The translations under genes were made by a program, and so were the position numbers. This document shows, one piece after another, positions 11,233 through 48,100 of a DNA stretch of 64,000 bases (positions are counted from its first letter, which is position 1; each line of letters starts with the position of its first letter). Source of the stretch: Nymphaea colorata (taxonomy: Eukaryota > Streptophyta > Magnoliopsida > Nymphaeales > Nymphaeaceae); the NCBI RefSeq assembly GCF_008831285.2, contig NC_045150.1, positions 6,088,001 through 6,152,000 of the forward strand, given 5' to 3'. Below the pieces are notes generated by a model. It saw only the letters and a program-made list of their open reading frames with translations. It ran no database searches and had not been told where the DNA came from.

Positions 11233-14200
11233 TCATCCTTGAATCCTAGCAATCTCCACCGATTTTTGAAGAGCCGCTAAGAGACTTTTCATTATCCTTG
11301 GCTCACCAGCAGGTGCTTGTTCTTTGAAGGCTCCATTCCTGAGTGCTCGGAAAACTGGACCAGAATCATCAGTTGCAGGAAAAACTAAACAGTCTATGTA
11401 AGTGTATTCTTCCGTCTTGCCATCTCTAATCCTGATGAAACCCAACCTAACTCCACCTTGTACCTTGTCTATCTAAGACCACATACATGTAAGAAAATGT
11501 AAGAAATTGTGCAGAAAGCTTGAAAGTTCAGCAACAGTATAAGAGTGAAGATGTGATATAGGACGCTGCAAGCACTAGGCATCACCATTTAACCGTAACA
11601 AGTTCAAAACACTAGCTGAAAGTCATCTGTTAATTATCATTAGCGCCTACTTATACTTGACAACTGAGATGGCTTGAAATGAAAACTGCAGGTTGACGTT
11701 TCACATACACGCACATGGTGGTTACAACAAAAGGCCATCATAAACAAGGATATGGTTCAAATACATGACATGCCAGGGCCAATGCTCATGAATGTGAATC
11801 TGCAAAGTAAATTGGATTCAAACGATTCAACATTGTGCAAAGTACGTATCTGCGTTTAGATTTGAACTTCACCAACAAATAGTTACAAAAGTAACAAGGA
11901 AAATGGACGTCATGACTTATGAAACTATGAACTAAAATAGAACAACTGAATTTTGTTAAAGTTCTACACATTTCTTAAAATCTAATACTGCAGATCATTG
12001 ATCATAGTTCATTTGACAAAAGCTAAGATAAACGCTTATGAAACCATTGGCTATTGATTGGTAAAATCCTATGAAAAATTAGGTGTGCGGTGCAATTGAG
12101 CAAATCAACTGTTGACTCGTAGAAAATCTGGATTACATTAATAGAGTTACTTTAAAAAATGAAAGTCATGTTATAATCTTCAGTTTTCATAATCCCTCTC
12201 TCTTTCTCTACATAAATATATAGATAGACACACACATACATGTGTGTAATGGGTTACAGAAAATATCAAAGAGCATACATGTGGAGCTGCAATAATAGTT
12301 TTATGGTGTTGCATAAGTTTCTAATTTTAAAATGCCAATCAGCCAATGGAAAAGAACAAAGAAAACTAAAAAAGTCACTATCTTTATTAACATTCCTTTA
12401 CTCGCAGCTCATATTAATTATAAGACGGCACCATAAAAAAGAAAGGTCATGGCCTCTGTCAATCAATTATGGATGACTATTCAAGATCATCTTTCCAGTA
12501 AAAAGTCTCAAATATGATAACTCAGCAGGGAAGTGTACTATGTACGACCAAACGTTCCTAGATATATGCCTTTTTATGCTGTCACTTGCATTTAAAAATA
12601 ACTTTAAAATAATTGCTGTCCAGTTTTCCTTGAGGGGCCGTTTGATGGATTGGAAACCTGGAATGGGAAAGAAGATTCTGGAAATAAGTTTCCTCGAATA
12701 AAGGAATGGGAAAGATCTTTTCCATTCTAATTTTGCTGTGTGTGTGATGACTGAGAAACAAATTTCCTTCAAACTTGTTTCTTAGTTTGATAACTAAGAA
12801 AGAAGTTTCAGGAAACTTGTTTCTTAGTTTGATAACTAAGAAAGAAGTTTCAGGAAACTTGTTTCTTAGTTTGGTGACATCTGGAAGGATACTCTCCAGA
12901 TATTTGTTGGAGCTCCAGGCCGGATTGTATAGTTTTAATTTCAAAATACAAACCAAAAGATTCTAAAAGCATAGTAGGTATAAAGGAAAAATAGAGAGCT
13001 CCAAGCAGTACTGTCCCAATTACCACCAGCCATTTCCTCAATAGCTGCTCTCAAACATAGTTCTGTGCCAATTACCACCTAACAAATAGAGAGCCTAAGC
13101 AGTAATTGCCATTACTAGGCAGGCAACAGTCAAAGGTACACCCCAAGCATCTTTAGGAGGAACAATGTTCAGATAAGAAAGTTATCAAGACATTCAAAAG
13201 GAAATCAGAAACCCATTTGTGTCAAATAACAATTAAGAATGTGCCAACATCACATGCTTACAATCTATAATAGTGCTTCACATTTGCTTATAGGGAATGC
13301 AATCCATAAGGGCAATGTTTGCTTGCTTGGAAATGTACTGTAGCTGCATCAAAAAAATTCAAATTTTCAGAAAAAGCAAACTCCCCATCAAACAATGGAC
13401 AAAAAATGTATCTGTTCAGATCATTTCCGGAATAAAAATAGGGCTCCTTTGTGCCACGTCTGCCTCCTCTTCACAGCCGCTGCATGCCGCGTCTGCCCGA
13501 CTCTTCACGCCGTGCAGCTGCAGTGGAAGCAGCAACCTGCAACATCCTCGACCGGCGATCGGGCAGGTAACTTTCCTGCTACCGATCTGTCTCTCTCTCT
13601 CCCTGTCCCATTATTTCCCCTTTTTTTCAATCGTCGCAATGCCCTGACATGCCTGTCGTCCGACATTTTTTTGTTCTCATGCCCTTGCTTGTGTTGCTCA
13701 TATGGCCATATGCTTGTGTTCCTAGCAGATAGTTTTGGCCTCCCACGACATACTGCTCCGACAACTAATCCAACCTGCTTCCCAAACTGTCTAGCATACC
13801 AGCGGCTACCAATCACTCGGCCGTCTTGCTCTTTGTATGTCCTTTGATTTTGTTTTGCTATTGAGAATGGTTTCGAGTTTGCTGGCCGTTTTTCGTTCTA
13901 CATTTCTTCTCTCCTTGTTGTTTTGGGCTTCTAATGTTTCATGGTTCCGTTTCTTGGGTTTCGATTTTTGGGGGTTTGGTTTTGGGATTGGCTGGCGACC
14001 CACAGACGTGGTACCTCTGATCATAGAAATCAAATTTTTCACAGTAATGTGGAGCAAAACAGCCACCCAACTATCTTGTTTAGAACTATGCCTTTCTGAT
14101 TTCTACTTTGATCAACAATGATTTAGAATAGCATTGCACCACTGCTTGTGCAAGCTCTTCTAACTGCAAAAGCTCAACTTTGGAACATCTTTAGTCTCTT

Positions 14201-17200
14201 CAAATTTTTTTGGTCTCTTCATGTTTGTTTTCTAAAGTCCATGAGGAACCTTCAGATGATGCAATTTTGAATGTTCTATTTCATCTAACATTTAGCATTT
14301 CAATGTATCCAAAATTCCCAGTAAAGCTGAATTTCTTATGGGAGCATGGTGAAAATGGTTAACTATTTGTGGGTTTGTTGCACTTCTTGTTGTCATTGGA
14401 AAATTTGGACCTTGATCCTTAACAAACAATATTGTTCATAAAAATCAAGTCTATTGGGCTGCTTGAGCTAGACATTTTGTAATGTTTGCATGATGAAACT
14501 TTTTATCAGTTGATTGGATTATAAAAGAGCAGGGAACATATGGTTGTTGGCTGGTTGAGAGCCTATAGCTAAGTCCTGGACTCGGCTACAAGCTGGCTTT
14601 ACTCAATTGTAGAGGATGATACCTATGGTGCACATCTTCAGCAACTTTTATGCCGAAGACACTGAAAATATGTAGTGACATTCCTTTATCATTTCTTGTC
14701 TTTCTTGTTTAAATTTTAGCGGAAGCAGCTCTTTCTTGCTCTTCTCCTTCAAGTTTTTCTTGCTTAGAAAGAGAGCACGAACTGGTCTTTCCCATTACTC
14801 CAACGAAAACCATCTTTGATAGTTATAGCTTTTCAGGGTCCTGATACCTAATCCGGAGGTCATATGGATGCTGGGAAATATTATGAAAACATCATATTTG
14901 GTTGCAGATGACTACTGATTTCATTTTTAACTTGTTTGAAAATGTGGTGAATGAAACCATTTGATATCTTTGTGAGTTTCATGTTTCTAAGTTGTTTTTT
15001 CTATTTGCGATAGTTATGAGAATGCAGTTGACTGCTCTACCTAAAATATTTCTTCTTTGCAAACTATTTTACTATCAATAAACACTTACAGTGATTTAGA
15101 AGTTGTTTTATGGTATATGACTTTTAGCCAGATTCTTGTATCTACTTACTATTCATGCATACTATCTTCTTGGAATTGTATTGTAGTAGTTATGGAAGGT
15201 TCAAGCATCTCAAGAAATGACAGTCCCATATGGAGTGATGCTCAACTAGAATATCTTATAAATCTTCTATTTCAGCAATCACGACTACCTGGCATGAAGT
15301 CTAGCAGTAATTTAAAGGGAAAAGTTTATAGGGCAATTGAACAAAAGATGATGGAAAAGTTTGGGCCAAAATTCACAACAGAAAAAATTAAGAACAAGTT
15401 GAAGAGTACAAAAGCATACCACAATATATGCAAGCAAATTTTGGCAACAAGCGGGTTTGGTTGGGACCCAACAAACAAGTGTGTAGATGTTGATAATGAA
15501 GTTTGGGCCGTCTACATTCAGGTAAGGATGGAAAGATTTAGTTGATGAAATTCATCATCATGTCAATTACTAGATCCAACATATGTGACTAAGAACCAAA
15601 TTGCAGAAATTCCCAGACAGTCGCAAATTCAAAGGAAGGCAAAAATGGAAATACTATGAGAAGTTACATGAAGTGTATGGCCAGTCAACTGCCACAGGTT
15701 GTGGCAGTTATAATTGTACTTCATAAATGATGACTGAAGAGTGTGAGGCTAATCCTGCACCTGAGATCCCTATAACCCATATCAATGATTTTGGGATAAA
15801 TGTTGATGAAAATGTATCCTCACACAAATGTTGAACAATAATTCTCCTATACCATCACCAACACACGGTCAACAAGATTCACAACCTACTGCATCAGAAA
15901 GTAGGACCACCAAATCATCAAACAAAGAGCAAGATTAAGTACAATTGACGAGCACTATCGAATGTTATTGCATGACATAGTCGATAGTTTTCAAACAATG
16001 ACAAACACATCTAGAGCACAAACAAACAACAAATGTGCACTCATATTGCGTGAAATGCTCAACGCGAGAGAGATTGATAGGAGCTTTGCTTAGAAGAGCC
16101 CTGACACCTATGTCACACGGGTATGGGTACGCGGACACGGCGAATTTTATATTCTAAAAAATTAAAAAGGATAATAAAATAAAAAAAATATTAAATTAAT
16201 AATTCACTCTTACAATCTCATAAGTCATAAGAAAGAAAGTCTCAGATTGTCAAACAAAACATTCTTCATCACCAATCTCATAAGTCATAAGAAAGAAAGT
16301 CTCAAACAAAACAAAGAATGTCAGGTTAGTAAAGTGGTTCGGATTGGGTCTGACCCAGACCCGATCCAAAACGTATCTTGTCGCGTCCAAGTGTCGGTAT
16401 CCAGGTGTCAGAGTGTCGACACCGGCACGTGGCCCATTTTGCCGTGTCCGTGTGACATAGCCTGACACTAATGAAGCATGGAGATATGCTGCTCACCTTC
16501 CTCAACCTTGAGCCCAATGAACGTGTGCCTTGGTTACTTGAAAATATCAATCATCAATAGTAAGTAGCATATATTCTCCTATAGCTTCATAATTCAATGT
16601 TGTGTTTGTTCTAACTTCTATACAATTCAAAACATGTTACTTAAGTTGCTTTATATTTCATACATATATGTTTGTTTTATGGCAGTTAATTCCTTTGGCC
16701 TTTCGCCTTTCGCCTTTGCATATACTTAACTTCTACACATATATGTTTGTGGACAAAAGCATCCAAACGCTAATGTACATAAAACTACAATAACATAATA
16801 ACATATTCATGTAAAGACCTAACATCAAAGCATCTAAGTTAAATACATAACCAAGCATTGCATTAGAGTATGCATAGAAGCCGCCACATATATTGAGTCA
16901 GGTACAAATCCACCACAACGAAAACAAAATTAACAAAGTCACAATGACCACCACATGAACAGATTTGAAACTGGTAATTGGCTGTCCAGCTGTCTTCATG
17001 TCAACCTTCAAATAATCATCCTTTTCTTCAAGTGTGTTAACACACATGTCATCCAAAATTTGTTGATTGTTTGAGGGGAGTTTGCTTTTTTGGAAAACTT
17101 GAAATTTTTTAATGCAGCTACAGTACATTTCCATGCAAGCAAAACATGCCCTGAAAGAAAGGAAAAAGTTGGAGGAAATAAAACGGAAAGAAAGAAAAAG

Positions 17201-17692
17201 GAAATAGAGCTAACCTTCAAAGGTTCTGGTAGAGGGAGATTTGCTCCTTGGCAAAGGCTATTCGCCCACTGTCAATTTATTTTACCAAAAAAAGCTGCTC
17301 AAGATTTTTGTGAGAAATTAACGAGAAAATAAATAAGAATGGAAGAACAACGAGAACAGAAAACACCTCCCTCCGTCTCTAGCTCTCTCTCTGACCTGAA
17401 AGAGCAGCCTCTCGAACCTTTGCAAATCGACGTCGGACGGCAGCTTCATCGTTCCCAAGGAGATTGGCTCACCGTAGCCGTCAGACCCGATTATATCTCC
17501 GGACGATGATCGGACGGTGGGGAGCAAATGTGCATGGCGGCCGTAAAAGCTACCTGACTGCTTCAGTTGGACGCCTCTTCCACCTTCACACGGTAATAAG
17601 AGAGCCCTCCCGCATGAAGCAGTTCCAGAGAGAGCGCGGTGGTGCCCGACGCGCGAGTGAAATGTGGGATTTGTAAATGAGAGAGCGGCCAT
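11233..17692 (-). CDS. Probable plastid-targeted protein of unknown function, three exons, 196 aa
   Basis: On the minus strand the exons are 17692-17396 (99 codons), 17268-17215 (18 codons) and 11472-11233 (79 codons plus stop). All junctions are GT-AG and phase 0. The ATG opens a Ser/Arg/Gly-rich, acid-poor leader of about 55 residues, typical of a chloroplast transit peptide. The mature part starts near SLGTMKLPSDVDLQRFERLL, runs through WANSLCQGANLPLPEPLK and ends with GGVRLGFIRIRDGKTE, YIDCLVFPATDDSGPVFRAL and PRIMKSLLAALQKSVEIA. I recall plant plastid proteins of unknown function with the same order, but cannot name a reaction. Intron 2 is 5,742 bp and contains a 3.8-kb DNA transposon, which separates the last exon from the rest. 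The complete frame suggests the gene is still functional. I am confident in the exon joins and less so in plastid targeting. Confidence 0.78.
12771..12876. repeat. 42-bp tandem repeat with a palindromic core, 2.5 copies
   Basis: Units begin at 12771, 12813 and 12855, and the third breaks off after about 22 bases. Each full unit holds CTTAGTTTGATAACTAAG, a 7-bp inverted repeat around TGAT. The array lies in intron 2 of the plastid-protein gene. A sequence at 12635 (GGGGCCGTTTGATGG) looks like a Tourist-type MITE end, but no partner end was found. Confidence 0.9.
15192..15726 (+). pseudogene. Myb/SANT-like ORF1 protein of the Harbinger-like element, damaged
   Basis: Exons 15192-15521 and 15607-15726 join at phase 0 (CAG|GTAAGG ... 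TTGCAG|AAATTC) into 149 residues. The first exon has a Myb/SANT-like domain (about residues 10-110: SPIWSDAQLEYLINLL, KNKLKSTKAYHNICKQIL, GFGWDPTNK). The second has the typical FPDSRKFKGRQKWKYYEKL block. PIF/Harbinger ORF1 proteins help the transposase bind ends and enter the nucleus; related host proteins are the L10-interacting MYB type. The TAA at 15724 is followed at once by ATG in the same frame, a further stop comes at about 15830, and ORF1-like sequence continues to about 16560. A 353-bp insertion at 16108 splits that tail. This is therefore probably a broken longer gene. Confidence 0.75.
16108..16460. mobile_element. hAT-like non-autonomous element, CTATGTCAC family, copy A
   Basis: The ends are CTATGTCACACGG on the left and CCGTGTGACATAG on the right, a 13-bp perfect inverted repeat. 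They are flanked by an exact 8-bp duplication CCTGACAC (16100-16107 and 16461-16468). Eight-base target duplications are the mark of hAT elements. The interior is AT-rich, with no coding frame, and holds a 32-bp direct repeat (16214-16245 and 16273-16304). It sits in the 3' part of the Harbinger ORF1 relic. Confidence 0.82.
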
Positions 17693-19401
17693 CTCTGTGC
17701 GAGAGTAGCAGAGAGAGACAGAGGGTGAGAGAAGGCAGATGGTGAAGGCAAGAAGATGCGGATTTCACAACGGCCACATGCTCGCTTCCTTTGGTTTCAG
17801 CGAGATCCATCCACCTGCTCTTTTAGAATATTTCATTTTGACGGCCAACTGACAATGAAATTTCAAAACCGGACCTTGTTTTCATATATTTGTAATAAGA
17901 AAGTGGCTTACGTTAAATTATACCATTTAGCCTAAGTCATATGAATGTGGGTATGGGTATGATTCAAGTATGGATATAGAGATATAAGTATGGATACGTA
18001 ACTTTAGAAAACATGGGTACAATATTTTCAAAATGAAAACAACATTTAAAGTGTTATCAATAGCTATATTGTATGTTAATGAATAATAACTTTAAAAAAC
18101 AGAAAAGAAAGTGAACTATAAAAAAATTAAATTATGTACTTTATCAAGTTGATTTGGGTTCGAGCTAAACGGCATTCGAGTATATCTAAATACCCATTTT
18201 AGGTATTGGTATCATAGCATAGACCTTATTAAAGTACCCATTTGGCACATAAAACCGAAGGAGATCGCATATTAGTTCGTACCCTCTCATGCACGGCCGT
18301 ATTATGATATGAATATAATGAAACCACCTTTTAAGTGCAAAAAATCTCCTAACAAGGGAACAATCAGAAAAACAGAAAAAAAGGTTTCTTCTCCATGAGA
18401 TGACAAATATATATATATATATATATATATATGCCCACAAGCATAAAACACTTTAACTAAAGTACACCAATTTAAAATCTAATTTGAATTATGCATGCTT
18501 TAAGCTGCACTACATTTCAACGTGGCATGAACATGCAAGCAATTAGATAAAAAGCCAGGGGTGCTAGTGATGAACAATGGAAATCCTTAGATGAAATCTG
18601 CTGTCTAAAAGTATCCTACCTATTCTTTTTTGTAGAGCATCTAGATCTTGAAGCTCCTTTGTGAATTTTATTGGCCTTGATGTGTTTCAGTAATCCTTCT
18701 TTAGAACATATATATGTGTTGCTTAGACTAATCTTTTTTCAATTTTTTCTTTGACTCTTATTTTCAATATTTTGAACAGATCTTAGGGTGAATGCATCCT
18801 TGTGGAGCATCAAACACATCACACCCCTATTCATGCACCCATGCAACTACTGGAACACTTTCCTGTGGTCTGCATGCATCGGGAGGATCCTCACATGTAT
18901 CAAAGTCACCACTGCTTGTTTGTGCATGCTCACATCTATTATAATACTTTCCTCTCGTGCATGTGCATCATGAATATCTTTGCATGCATCAAACTAACTT
19001 CTGTGCTATCCGTGTGTTGCATACATGATACATCCAATATAATACTTTGTTCAACTCTGTGTGCATCAAGGTCATCCTCTTGTGCATAAGAGAACTCGCC
19101 ATTGTTTGTTCATGTATGTGCATAAATACTGATACACTTCCTTCTTTTCTAAATGCATCTGTCTTTTCGAAATGAATCATACATATTATTCCTCGGATTG
19201 AAATAATCTACAATCACAAGTGCGTCGCCTGCATGGTTTTTATTCATCATGTAATTTCTGTAATTTTCATAATCAACAACACTCATGGCTGCATTTATAG
19301 TCTGCAATTGAGGTAAACACACTTACAATAGTAACAACATCTACAAAAGGTGGGATAACTTCTTTCTATTCGCTAGCTTTTCATGGTTACAACAGTAGCA
19401 A

Positions 19402-20117: not shown

Positions 20118-21722
20118 ATGTATCATCCTTCCAGGGGGGGCGTGCGCGGTGGCCGAGACCGTGAGTTATCCTTGTTCCTTCTTTCCTTTTTCTTTTTTTT
20201 AAAACGTTTCTCTGAAGCGATTCCCTTTTTTCTGCACTTGCTTATTTATTTGTTGGGCTGCTTGCTCTGCTTCGGTTCTTTTTCCTCTGCTCCTGTGGAT
20301 ATAGTCTGTTTAGTCCTCCCAATTCTATCTCTTGAACCTGGTTGTGAAAATCAAAGGTCCTAATCTGAGGATTAAACATGATTTAACAATAATTCTTTTC
20401 GTCCAAAAGTGAGTTTTCTTTTATTTTAATAAACTGCAGTTGTAATTTTGTGGGCGATTATTGATATTTGCTCCTTAAAGAGGCAAGTGATGATTGCTCA
20501 TGTAACTTTCGTTTGGTTTTAGGTTTTCGCGTGGATTAGTTTATGTTGTTTTCATGCTATGCGGTTTCTAGCCAAAGTTTCTTCAAATTCTAAGGAGTCT
20601 TACCTAGTTGTGAAAGTTGTTTGTTTTGCTTGATGGGAGGACGAATGAAAAATCGATGTGCCTTATTCTTGATTGAAAGATTTTGACAGAAAAATACTGG
20701 ATTTATGGCAACATCGAGATGCCTGTGGTCGTCTCCGGAATGCTCCTCTACTGGAGGTTTCTACATATCAATGAATTTATGGTTCTGTCACATCTACAAT
20801 CGGATGGAAGCACGTGTTGTATTTCTGAAGGAGTTGATCATGGTGTTGCGAAATTGTGCATGATTGTCTTACCCTGTGCACTATGCAGAGTTCAAGTGGG
20901 ATGACGTGAAGGCTGACAAGCACCGAGAAAATTATCTGGGTCACAGTGTTAAAGCTCCTGTAGGAAGATGGCAGAAAGGTATTTTTCCTTCTTTAACAGT
21001 GTCATTTTCTGAAATTTCCAGAAGCGTATAAACGTGTTACATTCAAAACCGAGCTCATATAGGTAGGTGAATTTCATCTGAATTTTATTGCTTATGTCTA
21101 GCTATTGACATTCTTTGAAAAAAGCTATAAAGCTATATCTGATTGTTTGATATGGTTCCATTTGAATCGATTGGTTTTACCCAGTTGCTTGGTGCCCCCA
21201 ATGCGTAAGGTTCTATCTTTCTGCTAAGACACTTAAGATGTGAATCATGTGATGAAGCTAATAGCAGCTTTTTCTAGCAGAAAGTTGTGTTCAGCTTTTC
21301 GCATTTCTGTTTTTACTAGGGGATGATATTTATATTGGTTAGGGATTCAGTAGCGTCTTATTTTTTTATATCTTGAGTACTGAAGATCTATGTAGACAAA
21401 TCCAAGAGTTGAGTTCTACTAATTAAGTAAAATAGTAGCGAAATTTTAGGAAACACCTAAAAGATGAACTTAAAAAATTTCTACTAGGGCCAATTTAAAT
21501 ATTTTTATGAGGGACTATTATAGAATTTAAAAAATTTCTACCGGGGCCAACTTAAGAAATGTTTAGTAGTGAAATACTAAGTCACATGGGTGCGCCAACC
21601 CGCATCGGTGTGAGGGCAGGTGCTGGTGCGGCCCGACACAACATCATTGATATATTGATTCAAGGTAATATTGATAAAAAAAAGTTTAAAAATATCACCA
21701 ACTAAAATTATTTATATGACAG

Positions 21723-21764
<42 letters not shown>

Positions 21765-24700
21765 CTCTCGCCGCACCCACACCCAATTTTTTTTAGGACT
21801 TGCCGCATCCTGCACTCGCACCTGCACCCATGTGACATAGGTGAAATCTTATTTTTAATAACTCAGGAGGTGAGGGCATGGCCCTTGCCAAGCACACACC
21901 CACCCCATTCCCCACCCGGCCCCCGCCCTGAAATTTGAATGATGTATCATCGGCATGAAGGCTGCCCCTGGCTAAAGATAAATACATCTAGGTTTAGCCC
22001 ACAATAAAAATATGGATTTTGGAGATACATCTTGATTCTTTGTTTTGGCTTTCTGTTTGTAATATGAGTATGTGAAGGGTGGATGGCATCAACAATGTTT
22101 TAAAAAGCGTATCGTAAGCCATATCGGTCTGGCTTTAAGATACGCTGTATCGTAAAATATCGTAACGTATCGTAACCGTATCGTTTTTTTTTTAAATAAT
22201 CAGAAAAAATATAAATAATTCTCAAAAAATAATAAAAAAAATCAATAAAAATTACCGTATCGTACCTGTATCGTGTCGTATCGTTGCCGTGTCGTAAACG
22301 TATCGTACGATACGGTGCCTGTATCGTAAATGTACGATACGTGGGGTGTATCGTATCGTATTTTACGTTCGATACGATACGGCTCCGTATCGTACGATAC
22401 GTACAACACTGGGCATCAGTGCTACCTTTTGAAAAACTTGAACATTGCTCCTCTATTTATTTTTTTTCATTTGGGAACTGGGACCTTAGACAGGGCCAAA
22501 TTACAAGATATCTCCTATGTTAGCTCTGATGGCTGCATCTAAGTCACCTCAATCATGGCTTCTATTTGTATTAACTCTGATGACAGCATCTAAGTCAGCT
22601 CAATCATGGCTTCTATTTGTATTATTGGAACCAGTACTTCTTTGTTTCTTGTTCTCTTTAGGAGGCTGGGAATTCTCAATCATAGTTAGAAATATAGTTC
22701 TTGGGTTTTCATCAGCAAGTTGGGTTCTAATCAGAAGTTTGGCTTTCTTTTGTTTCCTGGAAAATCTTAGGAATCCAAAAAATTATTAGAAAATGGCCTG
22801 TCCTAATCAATGGGCTTGATAGTAAAAGTGAAAAGTTCTGACATGCAAGGCCTTTGAAAGGGAAAAAAGTTAACAATTGGAAGCCCACTTCCATATGCCT
22901 GCTTGATTCTACCGTATCACTTAATTGGACGAACAAACTTGTACCGGAACAGAAATGATGTTTCAATTTGATCGTTTTTTCAATATCAAAATGGTCTGCT
23001 GTTTTTCTTACCATGTTTTCATTTTATTTCGATTTTTACGGTAAATTAGTCCTAACTCCTACGTCTTTTATTGAGAAGTAGTGATGGCTGCTTTACCATG
23101 TACTCCATTGCTCCTAATGCAAGATACTTCCTTCTAGTACATTTTATTTTCTCTCTGTTATGAGAACAAACAATAGAACCTAGCTTGGAAAGAACGGAAA
23201 GCTCAACTGGCCTAAGCTCTTTCATTTCCACATACACACTTAGTGTCATATGGAAGAAAATAGAACACTTCTAATTCTTCATTTGTCTAACTTATGGAAT
23301 TTAACAAAGAAAAATAAAAAGAAACCTAGAAAGGAATGAACATTTTCTCCTTTCTCCATCCAAAAAATTGCATTGAAGAGGTAGGAAAACCATCTAAATT
23401 GTTGCCCATGTTGCACCATCCTCTTTTCATGGTTTGAGAAAATGCACATGCCTTCCTCAATTATGAAATATAATGAATAGGCAGATGCCACTATGGGGTT
23501 TATCACGTTGGGTGCTTTGAAAACTAAAAACCATTTTCCACCATTTAAGAAAGAAGACAAATGGTTAATGAGAAAATGGGCTGCGGCCAAGAGGACAAAT
23601 CTAATTGCTTCATACTTTGTGAAGAGGGTATTTCTACTTTTGCATTATAATTTCAAATATGACATACCTGCCCAAGTAGACTTGTTTGTCATTATTAAAA
23701 AGTTATAGTATTATAACTTTTGTCCATCCATTACCCTTTCGCTGGGATCTAAATAGCGAGATTGAAAAATATGCAAAAGTCTACGTCACATGGGTATGGG
23801 TGCTGTTACAGGTACGGCCATATGGGTGCAGAGCAAATTCAAAAACCTTAGGTATAGGGATATGACTGTATAGACACACACACACACACACATGCATGCA
23901 CACATGCAGACACATACACATAAGAAGTTTTTAAACAAGCGACAAGTGTGTTATCTAAAGAAAGTCGTCACCTTGCTAAAGACAGCACCCGCTTGCCAGT
24001 TGTTAGAATGGCAGACTACTTGGACACTAAAGGTAGGAATCACTAGGAAAAGAGCCTTTGACTTTGGTCAAACTCAAAGGCTCTTTATCATGTATATGCA
24101 TGGTGAATAAAATTGCCCTAAGTTTTGGATGGTCATGGACTTTTGAGCCCAATAATTTATGGATTTGGCCTTGGGTGTGTTGATCGGACTCGACACGGTT
24201 AGAGCTGCACTTGAGGTGTGTCCCAAAGCCACACCTGTGTTGGGTTGTGTCGATACTGGTACACCACCTTTTACAAGTGTTTGTGTTACATGTGCAGGAA
24301 TCAATGAAAAATAATAAGCTATGAGTTTTCTGTAAATTTTCGTAAAAAACACTAGTACAAGTTTTAAGTAGTTGGTCGAGTTTTAGAGGAAACAAAAAAA
24401 CATTTGGAATATATACAAACATTATGTTTAAAATTTTAAAATTTTTGGGGGACTATATAAAAAATATCACAATATGTGGCAACATTTTCTTCAGAAATTG
24501 AAATTTTCAATAATTTTTAAAATATCATAATAAGTTCCTGGTTTGTCATTTCAGTTTTTTAGTATATGTCTATTCTCTCAATAAAGATAAAGCTAGGTAG
24601 ATGTGGTTTTCATTGTCTGGTTGTCTCTGGAGTTTGCTACTGAGATGCTTGCTTATGTTAATGGACATTGAGTCTTTTCTGTATATGTGTTTATGTATGT

Positions 24701-27700
24701 TTAACATCCCTATGCATTTAATGTGTGTCTCCACGTGTTTTTCTGTACAACTGGTTTCCTTCTTATGTATATATGTTTCTGTATATCTGATTGTGCTTCC
24801 ATATGTTTTCCATTGATTCTATTTTAGTCAACTGCCTTTGTCTGACTTATGATTTGAATAACTTAAGTCAGATGCATGTGTTTTTTCAGTCAGTTATGCT
24901 TTTAAATTTGTTTGGCTTCCACTTATTTTTTTCAAGACTGGAATGTGATTGTCATGCCTTTGTCTTTGCTAAAATCACTTCACGTTTGTGAAAAAATTCC
25001 TCGTTTATATCCTTTGTAATGTTGAATATATCTGTTCAACCATTTGTATAAGATTGTGATTTCTCATCTGTTGTGTACTTCCAGGCAAGGACCTCTTTTG
25101 GTACGCCAGAGACAAAAAGTCTGCAATGGCAGATGCTGAAGCTGCTAAAGAAGAAATAAAAAGGATCAAAGAGCAGGAGGAGCAAGCTATGCGTGAGATT
25201 CTTGGCATGGCTCCAAAAAGTGGCAGTCGGTCACAGGGCAGCCGCTTAGATAAACATGAATATGCTGAATTAGTTAAAAGAGGTTCCACCACAGAGGACA
25301 TAGGTGCAAGTCATGCTGAAGCAATACGGGTTCATGGTCTTGGTTTTTCTCGGTATATTGGACCTGTTAAATGTTTTAGAAAAGTTGAAAGTTATTTATC
25401 AGTACCATTTTTGCCTTGTTTTCTTCTGTTTCTCGAAAGCATATGACAGAAGACAAACAGAAATTTGTTGTGTCATTTTCCTGTTTTGATTTTTAGTGGT
25501 TGACTAGATTACAACTAGATTACCCTTTTGGAAATAGTTGCATCTTGTCTGAAGGAAATAGTGGTTGATAATTGATATAATGAGATCTCCTCTTTTATCC
25601 ATCACCTTTACCATTTCAAAAATTGTTCTTCCTGTATGCCCTTTGTTTAAGACATCACGTTTTTTACTGGTGAATATGTATGAACACGATTCTTTTTCAT
25701 TTTGATTTTGTTTCATGATTAGAATATTTCAAAAGCTGGTTTAGGTCTTCTGTTTTTTGCTATCTATTTTCTGTTATTCTGCTTTAGCCTTTAGACAATA
25801 AACTAGTTAGCTTGCCTGGCCTTGGCCTGGAACAAGTTATCGAATATCATGGAATATATGTTTAAAAGTTTTTCTTTTTTCTTGTGTTTGTGTTTTTATC
25901 AGAATAATGTGTACTCTTAGTGAATTAGGCGCTTCTGAATACCTTTCAGTTTAGTCACCTATGTATGTAAGTATAAAATCCGAAAAAAAAAGCAAAAATC
26001 AGAAAAAATCAAGAAAAATGTATTTAAAGGAACATTCATCATTCATGTATATGAATTATGAAGTATGAAGTATGAATATGAACAACAGATTCCAAAATAA
26101 GAAATCAAACATTCAAAAATCAAGATAACATACTAAGCAGCCCAAGCAGCCCAAGAGTATTTGATTACATCACAATTCATAAGTTCAGAAGTCAAAACAT
26201 ATAGACATAGTTATCATATTTCATAATTCAATAAAAAGCCTTGTCAATCATCATCTGCATCATCATCTTCATTCTTCATCATCATCTTCATTTTCTTCAT
26301 TAAGTGCCTCTTCATTTAGCAAAAATGAGTTATTTTTTACCTTCTTGGTGTTAGAAACCAAAAAACCCTCTTTCTCCAAGCTTCCCACCGTCCCGAGACT
26401 CCCCACAACGAGAAGTAAAGCTTCTCCACTGGCAATTCTTGATGCAAATAGAGAAAATCTCTCCCTCCCACGTCTCTTGCAGGGTTTACAAACAAGAAAA
26501 GAAAAAGAGAGGAGCGTAGGTTTCAAAATAAAACACAAAAAAGGGGCCGTCGGGCCCCTTTTTCATTTTACCCCCGTATCGTACGATACGCGTGCAATAC
26601 GCACGCGTATCGTGTTTCAAACACGTATCGTATAGGTTTTCTTGACCTATACGATACGTATCGTACGATACGGATGCGTTTCGTACGATACAGATAACAT
26701 TGCTTTCATGTTTCATTTTGAGACTGTTTTCATTATTTATTGAAGTCTCAAATTATTATGTAAAGGCAAATCTGTCTTCTTATGTACGTTGGACAGTTCA
26801 GTATGTTATTCTCTTTGAAGGTCCGAGCTTTGGAAATTTGTATTTGTTTAAGCAGCTAAACATATTGCAACATCAAGCAAGTTGCCTCCACGTGACCTTT
26901 GAAGTCCACGTGACCTTTGAAGTGCATTCTGGTTTTAACATTCATTTTCTTCATGTTAATATACTAAAAAGCTGGCTTCTATGTGCATTGCCTTCACATT
27001 GGTCCATTAAATAATTTAAATCTTTCATGAATTTGAAGATGAGAAAGTGATATGGCCTTTCGTCTTTCTTGCTAGAATCGTTGTTGCATCACCTTCTACT
27101 TTTGGATTTTGTGGTAGCATTGTCTTATACTTTTCCTGTTTTGTGTTTTACCTTAAAATGGACTGACATTATTATAAGTTAGCCATAGCATTCTTATCTA
27201 CCTTAAAATTGGTCAGTGTTCCCACATTTTACCTTGAAATTTCAAGAGGTCGGCCTGTCATTTAAGATTCTGATAAATTTTTTCAGAAAACAAGAGAAAA
27301 GTTCAGGTTTCAACTCTTACCTCGAAACAGGTGGATTAATTTTTTTTGCTGGAATTTTTTTTTAATAATTTTCTTTATAAAATGACCCAATGTGGGAACA
27401 CTATTCAACATATTCACGCATCGATATTGCTTCTGGACTAATGGTTTTCTTTAGAATTATGCTTGTTACCTTCTTACAAAGGACTAATGGGTTATGAAAA
27501 ACCACATAAGGACATCCCTTTTTGAGAGATAAAAGTGCAAAAGGTTATCAGAAATACTGTAAGCACCATTTTGAAAAGTTTTGATGCACAACACAGTATT
27601 TTGATGGTATAACTGCATTATTGATATATGTGGCGTAGATCTAAAAATGGGAGAGGGCATCCATCTATTTGGCTTATTAAGACTTCGTCAGCTCATTCAG

Positions 27701-30700
27701 CTTCATTTTTACCTCTAATTTCTCTCTTATCTCATTTCTTCCCTGTTTTCCGTGTTCTCTCTCTCTCTCTCTCTCCCCCCCCACCCCAAAAAAATTATTT
27801 TTCATGCCAAGAATTTCCTTTTTCCCTTATCTTTTACTTTCTTTATCATCTTTGAATGGTGCAGTATAGGTACTTTAGGTCCATGAAGACCTACATGCAC
27901 TAAGAGCATCCACAGAAGATAGTAGAGAGCTTCTACAGTGCTTGGTAGGCTGAAAATTGGTATTTTTTTTAGAAATGTTCTCATGCATCCCTAGATACAT
28001 CTTTATGTGGGAAACTTAGACATCCATGTGAAAATGAGCCATCTAGGAAAATTTTATTACATAAGAATATACAAACCTCTTGAAGACGCTTAAGTTGAAG
28101 GACCTGAACCAATCGTTAGAAGATCCTACAAGACAATTAAACCACCACAAGAATTTGTATCATATGATTCTTTTTCTTCAAAACATAGGGCATGTTTATA
28201 GGTTGTACATGCTTACAATGAATATAGCTCAATTAGTGAAGCAAAGGACCATCATCATTGACAGATGCCATGAACATTGACCTTGGAGCCCTTGAAAACT
28301 GCAAGACTTAGGAGGTTACGTTTCTCCCTGAAGAGGCAATGACTATGATGTAAATAGGTCTATAAAGTGAGGACAAAGAGCGATGGTTCCCTAGAAAGAC
28401 ATCAAGCTAGGTTGGTGCCTGAGGAATGTGCTAAAAAATATGGTGTGACTACTACAAGGAAACCGTTGCTCATGTTGCTAGAATGATTATGTGATGAAAA
28501 TGAGGCCTTGGGGACCGATATGAAGATTGGTTTAGGTAGGGCTCCGGCCTACTACGGGGCACCTATAGGGTTTAGTGTGTCGGACCCTGTGTAGTTGCTA
28601 TAGCATCTTTTAAGCACTGCCCATGTTTCAAATGAATGTCAAAAATGTTTTTCTAAATGGTGACTCGAGTGAAAAAGTTTATATGGATGCTCCTTATGGG
28701 TATGATATGCCTAAGTGGAAAGTCTGCTTTAGAAAAAGCATTATATGGTCCCAAACATGCTCCAAAAAGTTGGTTTGATAGATTTGGCAAAGCCATGTTC
28801 AGTCAAGGAGCTAAGTCTTGTTATTTTGATACTGCAATGTTTGGTAAGAATTGTTTTGCAGTTTTAGTTCAGTTTTAGTTATCTCTAGTGGTGCATGGGG
28901 CCATACCACCATAGTTTCATGCATACCATCTAAAAATGGTGTTTTAGCTGAGAGATTCCCATGACATTTTATTTCTTATAAAACTTACATGTTAGATTTA
29001 TCTAACAAAAATTTACTGTACTGGTGAAAAATTTTATACCTTTCATAATTAAAATAGGTTGCTATACACAAAAAAAAGGGAACCGATCTTTCTTCAACAG
29101 ACAGATGTATCCCTAGATTGATATTTTCTTCTTTAAAATGAGGAGTTCTTTCACACATAATTCCTAACGGAGTCTAGTAGTTGGGTGTGAGAAGATTTTT
29201 AAGCCAGGATAAAGAAAAGTATTTGAATCCCTTTTGTTATCAAACCTTTATAGTATGATATGAGGTGTATCACTCTATATTGTACAATATAGTCCTGTAT
29301 CGTGTGACATTGGTTGGTACGAGGCATTACTCCCTTGTAACTGTGGTAACTGAGTTACAAACTTGCAGTGTTGTACAATAAGAGGGCATTTCATTCTGAA
29401 AAAGGTGAAATAACACAATCATTTATGTGTTGGGAAATGAAAAATCACGTTCCATGGATGCTCTACATTGGGTAGTGCAACCATTCCAGTGTTGATGCGA
29501 ATGGAACCCCAGGTTGTTGTTCCCATTTCTGGGATGGCCAAAAATAGGAAATCAAGTGTCCTCTTTCAGTCTTAGCAACTGCTACATTGCATATTATATA
29601 ATGTTGTCGGGTACAGCATGGTATGTACAACACCTAATCATGCCTGTGAATGTTTGGATGTCTGAAATCTGTTTGTTGCTAAACAATTCCCTTTCCAGGC
29701 TTGTAATTCCTGCAAAATTGTTTTGAATAGCATGGGGATGTGTCATTCTTGCGATTTAAGGTTCTTCTAAGTACTGTCGTTAAGCATTTATATTAAGAAA
29801 TATATCTTCCTTCATTCACCGCATTGTATGTTTCAAAATTTGCTTGGCACATATTATTTTATCTATTCAATGACCTTTCAGTCCTCCCCACATTATTTGT
29901 TTTCTGTCTGGTTTATGGCTTTTGTTTTCTATATAACTATCTTCTGCTTTTAAACTATTAATCAATGTTGTCACTAGCATATTTATCGTGTATCGGTTAG
30001 GCCGACCTATACGCTGTATCATAACGTATCGTAAATGTATCGTAACATATTGTAAAATTGATTTTTTAATTAAAAAACATTAAAAAATAGTAAAAATAAG
30101 GAAAAATATCCAAAAAAAACAAGAACAATGTATTTCATATAAAAAAAATCATCACACGTAAAGAATATTAATGATTCATTATTCATCATTCACAAAACAT
30201 AGGCATATATATCAGCAACAAATTCAAAAAGTGAAAATTAAGAATAAGAGATTCAAAATAACATATTAAAACATCCATGATCCATCACAAATTTAAAGAG
30301 CATCTATCACGTATGAGTTTAGACTTTAGATTTTAGAGTGTTATAGAGTCTAGTAAACTACATCACGAGTTCATCAAATCGATGGTTTCTTCCAAAATAC
30401 AGCAATTTTTTGGAGGAATCAGCAAAATCTCTCCCTCTCACAGCCTTTAGAGAAGCTTAGAGAGAGGGAGAGAGGATCTCAGTTTAAAAGGATGACGCAA
30501 AAAGGGGCCTTGGGGTCCTTTTTCAAATTTTAACCCAATATCGTAAGATACGGGGTGTATCGTATGATACACCTCGCCATATCGTATGATACACCCGATA
30601 CGGGCATGATACACGGGCGTATCGCGTATCAAGCCTATATCGTTTAGGTTTTCTTCACCCAGACGAGTCGTATCATACGATATGGGTTCATATCGTACAA

Positions 30701-31064
30701 TACGGATAACACTGCTATTAATAGAGAAGAAAGTAGTGTCTTCTATCTGCTGCTGCCTGGTTTGAGTTTTTTATTGCTTGGTATCATAGTTCCAACTCTC
30801 ATTTACAGGGCTCCTCGGGTTGCCACAGACTTTGGTTGCGAACCTTCCAGTACCAGTGTGAAAGAGGCATCACCTGATAGGGCTGATGCAGCTTCACCAA
30901 AGTCACTGACCAAGAGTATGGAGGTGCCAGCACCTCAAAGCCACAAGAAGCGTGAGAGGAATGGCGCAAGTGAAAAACATGCAAAACGCCACCATTCTTC
31001 AGAAGAGAAGAAAAAACACAAAAAAGACAAGGGGAAGAAGTATCATTCTGATTCTGATGGGTAA
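20118..31064 (+). CDS. Multiple myeloma tumor-associated protein 2 homologue (MMTAG2 family), four exons, 218 aa
   Basis: Exons 20118-20160, 20889-20978, 25085-25352 and 30809-31064 join in frame (phases 1, 1, 2). The N-terminus [20 protein letters not shown], then [18 protein letters not shown] and DLFWYAR (residues 48-53), is the diagnostic MMTAG2 domain. It is followed by an acidic and basic helix (about 60-84, [19 protein letters not shown]) and a conserved [14 protein letters not shown] stretch. The tail from about residue 165 is Lys/Ser/His-rich ([13 protein letters not shown]), likely nuclear and phosphorylated. The human relative is a nuclear, RNA-associated phosphoprotein; the plant role is unknown to me. 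The ATG is chosen because it opens the conserved domain. Introns 2 and 3 (4.1 and 5.5 kb) hold several transposons, yet the coding frame is intact. Confidence 0.9.
21577..21840. mobile_element. hAT-like non-autonomous element, CTATGTCAC family, copy B
   Basis: The left end CTAAGTCACATGGGTGCG and the right end, read as reverse complement CTATGTCACATGGGTGCAG, form the inverted repeat. The flanking octamers GTGAAATA (21569-21576) and GTGAAATC (21841-21848) match at 7 of 8 bases. The centre is an (AT)n run (about 21724-21762). It lies in intron 2 of MMTAG2. Confidence 0.78.
22093..22411. mobile_element. CGTATCG-palindrome hAT-like element, copy 1 (319 bp)
   Basis: The element starts CAATGTT and ends AACACTG. 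It is flanked by GGCATCAA (22085-22092) and GGCATCAG (22412-22419), which match at 7 of 8 bases. Both arms are packed with variants of CGTATCGTACGATACG, so either half can fold on itself or on the other half. There is no coding content. It lies in intron 2 of MMTAG2. Confidence 0.82.
22521..22625 (+). repeat. About 51-bp tandem duplication
   Basis: Two adjacent units share CTCTGATG, CAGCATCTAAGTCA/GCTGCATCTAAGTCA and CTCAATCATGGCTTCTATTTGTATT, with only a few differences. The duplication lies in intron 2 of MMTAG2. Confidence 0.85.
23784..23891. mobile_element. Fragment of the CTATGTCAC family, left end
   Basis: CTACGTCACATGGGTATGGGTGC is a left end of the same type as copies A and B. It runs into a (CA)n microsatellite (23875-23891). 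No matching right end or target duplication was found, so it is probably truncated. Confidence 0.45.
25944..26702. mobile_element. CGTATCG-palindrome hAT-like element, copy 2 (about 0.76 kb)
   Basis: The right end (TACGATACAGATAACATTG) and interior match copy 3. Both have an A-rich block near the left, ATTCATCATTCA words in the middle, a GGGGCC..GGG(G)CCCC/TCC block before the palindromes, and AGGTTTTCTT(G/C)ACC between palindrome clusters. The base after the right end begins CTTTCATG. The left end is eroded: CTTTCAGTTTAGTCACC at about 25942 is the best candidate, so the target duplication is not proven. It lies in intron 3 of MMTAG2. Confidence 0.72.
28130..28880 (+). pseudogene. Ty1/Copia reverse transcriptase relic
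   Basis: Reading across several frames and stops, the stretch follows the Copia RT start: [31 protein letters not shown], then [10 protein letters not shown] and [16 protein letters not shown], and finally [19 protein letters not shown] with [14 protein letters not shown]. These correspond to the usual EAMxxELxALExNKTW, VKNAFLNGxLxEEVYM and LKKALYGLKQAPRxWFxRF blocks. The YVDD active-site block is not present. It is a sense-strand dead insertion in intron 3 of MMTAG2. Confidence 0.8.
29963..30714. mobile_element. CGTATCG-palindrome hAT-like element, copy 3 (752 bp)
   Basis: It starts CAATGTTGTCACTAG and ends GGATAACACTG. It is flanked by an exact 8-bp duplication CTATTAAT (29955-29962 and 30715-30722), which fixes both ends and points to a hAT-type transposase acting in trans. 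The left arm has CGTATCGTAAATGTATCGTAAC. The right arm has many CGTATCGTAYGATACR variants. The AT-rich centre has no coding frame. It ends 94 bases before exon 4 of MMTAG2. Confidence 0.88.
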
Positions 31065-31126
31065 AGTCTTAGAAGGAGCTAAGCAAATGATAATTCTGCA
31101 TTTTAGTTTATTCAGAACACATGTTT

Positions 31127-31590
31127 CCAGTCTATTCATTTAAACATGGATAGATAAGACTTGTACCTTGTAAGCATTTTCATTTTAAGTTCGAATGTAG
31201 CAAGAATGTTGTTTTTATGTGCTTATGTTGAAGTTCATGTAAAATCTCTTTGTAAGAAAGCCTTTCTGCCGATGCTAGGTGCAATATCCAAGTATGTGGT
31301 TTGGTTCAGGCAGGGATCCTCACACGATTATGGCGTCAGAAATATACCTTTGTACTGAACTTTTTTCCATTCAGTTCATTTAACATGTGTAGATGAGACT
31401 TGTATCTTGTATGCATTTTTAAGTTCAAATATAGCGAGATTGTTGTTTGTATGTGCTTGTTTTGAACTTCTTGTAGATTTCTTTGCAAGAAAGCTTCAGA
31501 TGCTAGATGCAAGTCCCAAGTAGGATGTTGGGTTCAGGCAGATCCTCACACGATTATGGCATCAGAAACAACCTTTGCATTGAAGTTTTG
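31127..31590 (+). repeat. Tandem duplication of about 230 bp downstream of MMTAG2
   Basis: Units 31127-31365 and 31366-31590 share GAGACTTGTA/AAGACTTGTA.CTTGTA.GCATTTT, AAGTTC.AAT.TAGC.AGA, TTGTTT.TATGTGCTT, AAGAAAGC, GATGCTAG.TGCAA and the long block CAGGCAG..GATCCTCACACGATTATGGC. It may belong to the 3' UTR. Confidence 0.85.
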
Positions 31591-45100: not shown

Positions 45101-48100
45101 CTTCTTCCCAATATCCTACACCCATTCGTGGTTGGCAAACTGCCTTCTCTCTGTCCTTTAAGACACATGGTCGTTATAGTGAAATCCAATCCACCTTGCC
45201 CAATTGTTGCAGCCATTGAACTCCCAATACAATATCCGCTCCATCCATGGGCAGTGGGTGAGTTTTACCAAGAAGCGCTGCCCTTGTATTTAAATTAGCT
45301 GCTGGGAACATATACCTCTACATTGCAGAGAGTTCCCATTTCCCATGATCACCTTAAACTCCGGTTCTTCCACCTCGCACTGTTTTTTCACATATAGAAT
45401 TGTGGATGAATGCCGTATCCACCTCTTCCCTTACACGCGCATCAGCTATAGGAAATTACTACTAGACTACTAGTTAAGGCATTGAATAAGATTTTGGGTG
45501 GCCGCTCATGAGGGCTATCTTCCACTGTGCTAAATTCTTCATCTCCAGGAGGGGATTGTTTCTGCTTCTTCTTACTGTTCATCGACAAGATACATGTGAA
45601 ATCATTTTGCATGTGACCAGCCATCCATTTTTCATCACAACGAAAACATAATCCTCTTCTAGGTCGATCATTGATCTGTTCCTAGCTCAACCTTTTTACC
45701 AGCACCCGTCTATTTCCATTTTGTACCTTTGACACATTCAGTGACGGTACCATTGGATATATTTGGGGTAAAGTACCTTCAAAGTAGCAAACGCTGAAGT
45801 TCCAACATCCAAAAATGAAATATTGAATTGCCAATGATGAAGTTTCAAAAATGGCATGTGATGCATGTCTAGGCATATTGACGCATATAAATGACAATGT
45901 CGCACACTGCCTGACACTGACGCTTCATGTTTTTTGAAGTGTCCAGGCAACATAGGGACCAAAATGTAACCAAAAAGAGAATCATGCTCAATGAAATAAG
46001 AAAAAACATCTCCCACTTACTAGATCTTGGGGAACAAGAGCAATATGCTGCCTTAGGCTATCAAGCTTGATATTTCGAATGTCAATGCCATCTACAAGTA
46101 TATTCCCTGCACAAAGAATAAAAACCTCACCATAATTCCGTGCACAAACTTCAGAGGAATAAAAATTGAGAGAACCCCAAGTGTGTCCATTTCAGTCGAA
46201 ACATTAAGAAAGCCTAAAGAACAACCATTAACAGCCTTAAAAAAGCACTACCACTTTCATGCTAAAAAAATAACCCATAAATATCTCATGCGCACAGAAA
46301 ATGATCCAAACAATAGTTAAGGTTACAATATTAGGATTTTGGAGTGTAAAAAAAGAAGCAAAGAGAAGGCTCACCTTGAATAGGATCATAAAGACGAAGA
46401 AGTAGTTTGATGAGTGTTGTCTTCCCGCCTCCAGATGGGCCAAAAACAGCAACAATCTCTCCAGGCTCAATATGGATATTTAACTTATTTAAGATGAGAG
46501 ATGACTTTTCATTGTACTTGAATGAAACACCATGAAACTTTACACTGCCAACAATAGAATTTAAGGAAACAGCACCCTCTTCCTCCTTGACCTGTATTTC
46601 ATGAATATGAACCATAATCACAAATGCCATTCTCAGGAGTTTCTCCGCAAGGTTATTGTCGCTAGTGCTCCACCAGAAGTGGTTTTTCTCAGGAATTTTT
46701 ACAAATGTCTAAAGCCTTAGATTAAAAATTCCATAAATCGTAAAAATTTCCTTCCTTTCTTTTGTTTCCATTGTTTTTTCTCTTTCCTTGGGTGGGGTGG
46801 GGTGGTGGTATGTAGGGGCTTCGCTCTCTTCAAGGTGTCTCCACCTCCACCTTCCTTTTCTTCATTCCTTCCTTTTTTTTCCTCATTTTCTTCCTTTTTC
46901 CATAGCTTTTTTCATTTCTTTTTTTTATCTTTTCTCATTTCATCCTTCCTTTTTCCTTTTTCTCCTTTCCTTTTTACGTTGCAACAGACATCTCTTGGAA
47001 AACAAAAGGCGAAGATAGTACATGTTAAAACAAAACAAAAAAATCCTAAATCCAGATAGGGCCATTTCAGCTTTTCAAAGAACAGCTTTTCTGAGACTGG
47101 AATTCACAATAAATTTCTTTTAAGATATTTTCAAAATATCAGGAGATTTTTTTTTTATACTATAGCAATATTTTAGTAATCATCAGCAATCTGCAACTAT
47201 AACATGCATATTTAACCACATACATACATTATAATCAATTTTAATCAACCTCTTTTCAAAAAATCTGCCATACCAGACATAAAACAAAGCAAACTGATCT
47301 CTAGTTTTCACCTATAGTTCCTCAAATCAACATACTGACATCCAAAGTAGGGGTTGCAGCATGTTAAGAGAGGTATCTATCTGGCATGCCATTGGAAACT
47401 TGATGATGACAGACAGCCAAATTCTTTTATGAAAGACCATGTCCAAGCATGCAAAATTTTTCAACCATTTACTTGAAGCCATCAAACATTGTGAAAGAAT
47501 TCAGGAAAAGATTTTCTGTTTTATAACATATTATTTACGTCTTTTCACAAATATCAGTCGGAGTTCTGAGCTCCTACTTTTTCTCTAGCAATTTGAAGCT
47601 CCAAACAACATCAAATATGTCTACAAAAAAAATATTTCATGCCATCAAATGTCCCCCTAGAGGAGTTGACTGATTGCTTCAAAATCAACCAAACGTAAAC
47701 GAACAGACTTCTTTTCTTTTTCCTGAAACTCACTTAATGGTTTAAGATGCACTCCTACCATATCTTCAATTTGAAAATCCCCAGTACAAAATGTTCTATC
47801 ATGTTTGCTAACACGAAGAAATAGCACCATGTCACCATCAACACAGCTCTGAAAGATCACAGAAACTCATAAGTAATACCTGCGGAAGAAATGTTGTCAA
47901 ATCAAATAAGCGCTCTATTGCTGGTTCACCTTGTTTCATTTCATTGTATGCCTTTCCCACACCCTGTCAAAAAAATAGACTAGCTTTGAAAATCAATCAG
48001 TACAATGAAGAACAGTAACAACTTTAAAACTTAAACATATATGATGAAGACATGACAGGCTTAGCTTCAAAAAAAAGACAAACAAATCAACCTCAGAAAA

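Follow-up and report, generated by a model that had tools for sequence, protein, structure and literature searches.

Three intronic elements with arrays of a palindromic word in Nymphaea colorata, probably a non-autonomous hAT family

Overview

Three short elements, called copies 1, 2 and 3 here, lie in the introns of a gene for an MMTAG2-like protein in a stretch of Nymphaea colorata DNA (contig NC_045150.1, positions 6,088,001 to 6,152,000; all 64,000 nucleotides are referred to as the window, and positions are counted from its first letter). They probably represent separate insertions of one non-autonomous hAT family, of the kind known as miniature inverted-repeat transposable elements (MITEs), with arms that would act as clustered sites for the BED zinc fingers of a transposase. 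The hAT assignment is supported because 8-bp target duplications stand at the borders of the arrays found in the arms, the tips fit, the right ends of the copies are related and the array is confined to the copies. This putative membership is argued from the ends, the duplications, the subterminal repeats and the element length, and a transposase is not part of the evidence.

The host gene was recognized by a Pfam MMtag match (E 1.7e-9) in the one exon whose frame was scanned. Its exons were read by eye from the translations, with the start of exon 1 near 20118, exon 2 near 20885-20978 and exon 4 from 30809, its acceptor ending at 30808. By the exon coordinates read in this way, intron 2 holds copy 1 and intron 3 the other two copies, and the statement in a preliminary description of this DNA that three copies occupy introns 2 and 3 of one gene is borne out. 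The copies range in size from 319 to 759 bp (copy 2 counted from 25944) and have a G+C content of 34-36% in a window of 37.6% G+C; they are short, non-coding and AT-rich, as MITEs are. Directly downstream of the MMTAG2-like stop codon there is a tandem duplication of about 230-240 bp (31119-31568) with pieces that are 79-96% identical.

Borders, tips and target duplications

Copy 3 (29963-30714) is flanked on both sides by CTATTAAT, and the match stops at 8 bp with no ninth base on either side. Copy 1 is flanked by GGCATCAA and GGCATCAG, which agree at 7 of 8 positions. Both duplications had been claimed in the preliminary description and both hold. For random pairs of 8-mers from the window the chance of a match is 5e-5 for 8/8, 8e-4 for at least 7/8 and 7e-3 for at least 6/8. 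An 8-bp target duplication of the hAT type is found in two of the three copies.

The left end CAATGTT occurs in copies 1 and 3, and the right end AACAYTG in all three. In copies 1 and 3 the tips CAATGTT and CAGTGTT, the reverse complement of AACACTG, pair at 6 of 7 positions. These copies have short terminal inverted repeats (TIRs) of the YARNG type, which is the consensus of hAT tips, and they also carry subterminal repeats near both ends. The ends given in the preliminary description, CAATGTT...AACACTG, are those of copies 1 and 3; copy 2 ends in AACATTG on the right. Its right end at 26702 stands as it was described, but the start has been moved from about 25944 to about 25951 because the best left duplication is at 25943-25950.

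A blind scan of the window was made for YARNG ends with 7-bp TIRs and an 8-bp duplication, with 20 simulated sequences as the null. When an exact duplication was demanded the scan returned one candidate, copy 3 (simulated mean 0.1, maximum 1). When one mismatch was allowed 5 candidates came up, copies 1 and 3 among them (simulated mean 2.45, maximum 5). The duplication of copy 1 is credible because of its placement at the array borders and tips, and not because of the blind scan.

Could the elements belong to another superfamily that makes 8-9 bp duplications, for example the Mutator-like elements? The evidence for the superfamily consists of 8-bp duplications together with a degenerate tip, and no transposase was seen, so that such an origin has something in its favor. 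However, the flanks of copy 3 match over 8 bp and not 9, the tips are short and of the hAT type, and at the 30-nt setting no long inverted repeat linking the two ends of this copy was reported; another superfamily is considered very unlikely. The hAT-like family that had been proposed is upheld by the 8/8 and 7/8 duplications, the tips and the short non-coding body, but not by copy 2, for which the borders are incomplete.

The copies are related in sequence. The right ends of copies 2 and 3 are 76% identical over 121 nt, and further stretches of these copies are 76% identical over 87 nt and 78% over 55 nt. The right end of copy 1 shows 82% identity over 49 nt with copy 2 and 82.5% over 40 nt with copy 3. 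In the left arm and the adjoining AT-rich stretch, copies 1 and 3 agree at 73% of 117 aligned positions. Copies 2 and 3 also share an internal G+C-rich, hairpin-like stretch (26538-26569 and 30499-30530, 78% identical) with AAAAAGGGGCC followed by a CCTTTTT side, and this is perhaps a remnant of a parent element. About 110 bp to the right of copy 1, a 51-bp unit is duplicated head to tail (22520-22621, 92% identical).

The 16-mer and the arm arrays

The arms are built around a self-complementary 16-mer, CGTATCGTACGATACG. With up to 3 mismatches it has 11 matches in the window and all 11 are within the three copies, compared with 0.01 on average and 1 at most in 100 dinucleotide shuffles. At 0-4 mismatches there are 13 matches inside the copies and none outside; at 5 mismatches 5 matches are inside and 6 lie elsewhere. 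Without mismatches, the half-site GTATCGTA/TACGATAC is found 23 times in the window, each time inside a copy, and when one mismatch is allowed 44 of 55 occurrences are inside. Perfect palindromes of at least 16 bp are found 113 times in the window (nested ones counted apart), 6 of them in the copies and 107 outside, and among the 25 outside palindromes listed nearly all are AT repeats. Palindrome length per se is not rare in the window; it is the word CGTATCGTACGATACG that is restricted to the copies.

The distribution of sites differs between arms and between copies. The right arms of copies 1 and 2 have three palindromes each: two exact 16-mers and one with 3 mismatches in copy 1, and two exact 16-mers and one with 2 mismatches in copy 2. 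Half-sites are present in both arms of copies 1 and 3 and in the right arm only of copy 2. In the left arms of copies 1 and 3 they are mostly direct: the exact core TATCGT occurs five times forward and never in reverse in copy 1, and three times forward and never in reverse in copy 3. At one mismatch the left arm of copy 1 shows one reverse half-site, and in its right part a run of direct half-sites stands beside the palindromes, so that the split between left and right is not clean. Tandem Repeats Finder reports degenerate arrays in the arms with periods of 10, 11, 20 and 21. The earlier picture of arms made of dense 16-mer arrays is right in that the word is confined to the copies, and needs correction in that the arms are uneven, copy 2 being arrayed on the right only.

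A second array of a self-complementary motif is present at 12630-12880, with a 42-bp unit, AAACTTGTTTCTTAGTTTGATAACTAAGAAAGAAGTTTCAGG, in two identical and further decayed copies. A stretch near it, GGGGCCGTTTGATGG, may start a different MITE.

CpG decay

The CpG observed/expected ratio is 3.3 in copy 1, 1.1 in copy 2 and 1.3 in copy 3, and 0.51 in the window. The five palindromes of copy 3 have 13 mismatches to the word; all 13 fall at its eight CpG positions and none at the other eight, and 11 of them are C>T or G>A. When the cut-off is relaxed to 5 mismatches (best sites that do not overlap, without the rows that have 6, but with the half-palindromes in the left arms), CpG positions account for 34 of 42 mismatches and C>T or G>A changes for 22; copy 1 contributes 15 of 22 at CpG, 8 of those being transitions. 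This pattern fits past CpG methylation and is clear in copy 3 only. It had been suggested that the arms could be methylation targets, and the decay in copy 3 lends that suggestion indirect support.

Coding content, RNA folding and searches for relatives

The six-frame translations of the copies are broken and contain no detectable coding remnant. Five open pieces of the copies were compared with Pfam and gave nothing meaningful, the best E being 0.092 to an unrelated model. A crude scan of the window for BED and dimerisation motifs returned one ERDFS at 29452 on the minus strand and seven loose CCHC-type motifs, which were judged to be chance.

Searches elsewhere returned no relatives. The exact 16-mer with AACACTG within 30 bases had 0 occurrences in viral and prokaryote contigs, where a plant element is unexpected; this pattern would also overlook copies that resemble copy 3. 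Copy 3 had no match among plasmids. By title, none of the literature texts with at least one of GTATCGTACGATAC, CGTATCGTACG, GTATCGTATCGTAT and ATACGATACGATAC is on transposons, and no literature on the CGTATCGTACGATACG word or its family was found; the comparison did not extend to repeat libraries, in which the family is possibly catalogued already.

All three copies fold strongly in silico, in line with an earlier proposal that the arms could form RNA hairpins. Compared with shuffled sequences, z is -7.8 for copy 1 (100 shuffles), -14.4 for copy 2 and -9.3 for copy 3 (20 shuffles each). Strong folding is to be expected of any array of palindromes; a role in small RNA production would be compatible with the predicted folds. 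It is conceivable that the copies now regulate the host gene, either as pre-mRNA hairpins that alter splicing or as nuclei of intronic methylation. The folding far beyond shuffles in all three copies would suit such a role, as would the position of copy 3, which ends 94 nt upstream of position 30808, where the exon 4 acceptor ends. However, the copies have diverged and copy 3 is decaying, good folding would be seen in any palindrome array, and no Rfam match was found within 21000-31500; a regulatory role is considered improbable.

A related idea comes from the Tam3 Stabiliser loci of Antirrhinum, which are known here from a commentary (PMC12449043). They consist of hAT copies, intronic at one of the loci, with an end that holds transposase-binding motifs; a hairpin RNA yields small RNAs, and a silencing role has been proposed for this intronic structure in snapdragon. 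By analogy, the intronic copies in N. colorata might form a silencing trap, in which the arrays, transcribed as part of the MMTAG2-like gene, would give hairpins that are diced into small RNAs, and these would direct CpG methylation or block binding at the corresponding arrays of autonomous relatives. This is regarded as highly improbable. The Stabiliser differs in that it comprises two head-to-head elements and its small RNAs have been measured, whereas here each short element is predicted to fold on itself.

Comparison with known hAT elements

The Ac/Ds system of maize makes an 8-bp target duplication, like those seen at copies 1 and 3. The further likenesses and differences are drawn from excerpts of three papers (PMC3260210 for Ac/Ds, PMC10368747 for Hermes and PMC7385995 for BniHAT). 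Ac/Ds has short tips, a subterminal binding word and short non-autonomous copies, and its transposase binds the subterminal AAACGG repeats cooperatively (PMC3260210). The present elements differ from it in their word, a self-complementary palindrome of 16 bp that contains four CpG, and in their tips. Ds1 elements, about 400 bp long, have only the tips and a few repeats in common, and most hold fewer than three AAACGG copies, according to the same excerpt (PMC3260210). Hermes of the housefly resembles the present elements in its subterminal repeats, a quasi-palindromic pair and an 8-bp duplication, and two BED domains bind that pair of quasi-palindromic subterminal repeats cooperatively (PMC10368747). 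In contrast, two pairs are reported as palindromic in Hermes and the binding word is AAGT (PMC10368747), and here palindromes recur along the right arm. BniHAT-1 and BniHAT-2 of Brassica nigra are comparable in size (666-673 bp), in AT-richness (70-75%) and in the 8-bp duplication, but no palindromic arrays are mentioned for them, "palindrom" being absent from the main text (PMC7385995).

The cases of Ac and Hermes make it plausible that a transposase would bind the arrays. An autonomous relative elsewhere would supply the hAT transposase, and its BED zinc fingers would bind the arrays with one finger per half-site, GTATCGTA, and two per palindrome, CGTATCGTACGATACG, into which the half-sites pair up, mostly in the right arms. 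Bound transposase would gather on the ends of the element, so that the arrays may act as transposase collectors. Cutting would take place at the CAATGTT/AACACTG tips, followed by insertion with an 8-bp stagger. After insertion the CpG-rich arms may have been methylated and decayed by deamination, most clearly in copy 3.

A number of observations weigh against this interpretation. None of the 33 stop-to-stop frames of at least 110 aa in the window has a hAT-type Pfam match, although shorter remnants would escape such a search. Copy 2 has a clear border on the right but no left tip CAATGTT; its duplication is 6/8 at best, with a chance of about 0.7% that is raised by the free choice of place. 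That all three copies lie in a single gene may be a matter of local history. The forward half-sites in five arms show no significant 10.5-bp helical phasing (p 0.06-0.85). The CpG bias of copy 3 has a probability of 1.2e-4 under equal odds for every position, which is a simple null, and the three palindromes in each of copies 1 and 2 have together 3 CpG and 2 non-CpG mismatches, too few to judge. In addition, the palindrome columns of copies 2 and 3 are 81% identical (32 columns) and the columns elsewhere 74% (87 columns), which is not a clear difference.

This last result also suits a different explanation, namely that the arrays are by-products of replication slippage and template switching in the ends with no role in binding, and that mobility needs the tips only. 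The degenerate tandem repeats of the arms could seed palindromes, array content varies from copy to copy, and Ds1 elements without the Ac repeats are still mobile according to the excerpt (PMC3260210). What speaks against slippage is that four exact 16-mers, with four CpG each, persist in copies 1 and 2, which are otherwise alignable only over short stretches, and that other hAT ends require sequence far past the tips, as the excerpts have it (PMC10368747, PMC3260210). Slippage without a binding role is considered possible though unlikely, and arms that serve as transposase sites remain the preferred interpretation.

Coordinates and other features of the window

The features of the three copies and the exon that separates them are given in Table 1.

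Table 1. Positions in the window of the three putative hAT-like elements, their target duplications and exon 3 of the host gene
Feature	Position	Strand	Basis or remark
Copy 1 left target duplication, GGCATCAA	22085..22092	.	7/8 vs right one
Copy 1, 319 bp, putative array-rich MITE, CAATGTT...AACACTG	22093..22411	+	sequence
Copy 1 right target duplication, GGCATCAG	22412..22419	.	sequence
Host gene exon 3 (MMTAG2-like)	25085..25352	+	Pfam MMtag; splice sites by eye; separates both copy-bearing introns
Copy 2 possible decayed left target duplication, CTTTCAGT	25943..25950	.	6/8 vs CTTTCATG
Copy 2, left tip lost, right end AACATTG	25951..26702	+	sequence; start approximate
Copy 2 possible right target duplication, CTTTCATG	26703..26710	.	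sequence
Copy 3 left target duplication, CTATTAAT	29955..29962	.	exact 8/8
Copy 3 left arm, CAATGTT tip and direct half-sites	29963..30060	+	sequence
Copy 3 AT-rich interior without recognisable coding sequence	30061..30530	+	sequence; one open piece Pfam-scanned
Copy 3 right arm, five 16-mer palindromes (2-3 mismatches), end AACACTG	30531..30714	+	sequence
Copy 3 right target duplication, CTATTAAT	30715..30722	.	exact 8/8

Pieces of other genes in the window include a Sec23/Sec24 helical domain (5575-5910), DUF7148 (17318-17764) and a segment of an ABC transporter ATPase (46331-46708). An open frame at 15045-15545 contains a Myb/SANT-like DNA-binding domain (Pfam Myb_DNA-bind_3, E 8.8e-17), a domain that is known from plant genes and from the second protein of PIF/Harbinger transposons.

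Significance

The three copies appear to represent an unusual-looking element of a basically familiar kind and, unless it has already been catalogued, a new family. If the 16-mer is a binding site, the family would provide a simple test of how palindromes are read by hAT BED fingers, one end carrying mainly direct half-sites and the opposite end complete dyads. Otherwise, it would be a modest addition to the annotation of plant repeats. The elements may also preserve a record of the history of CpG methylation inside introns.

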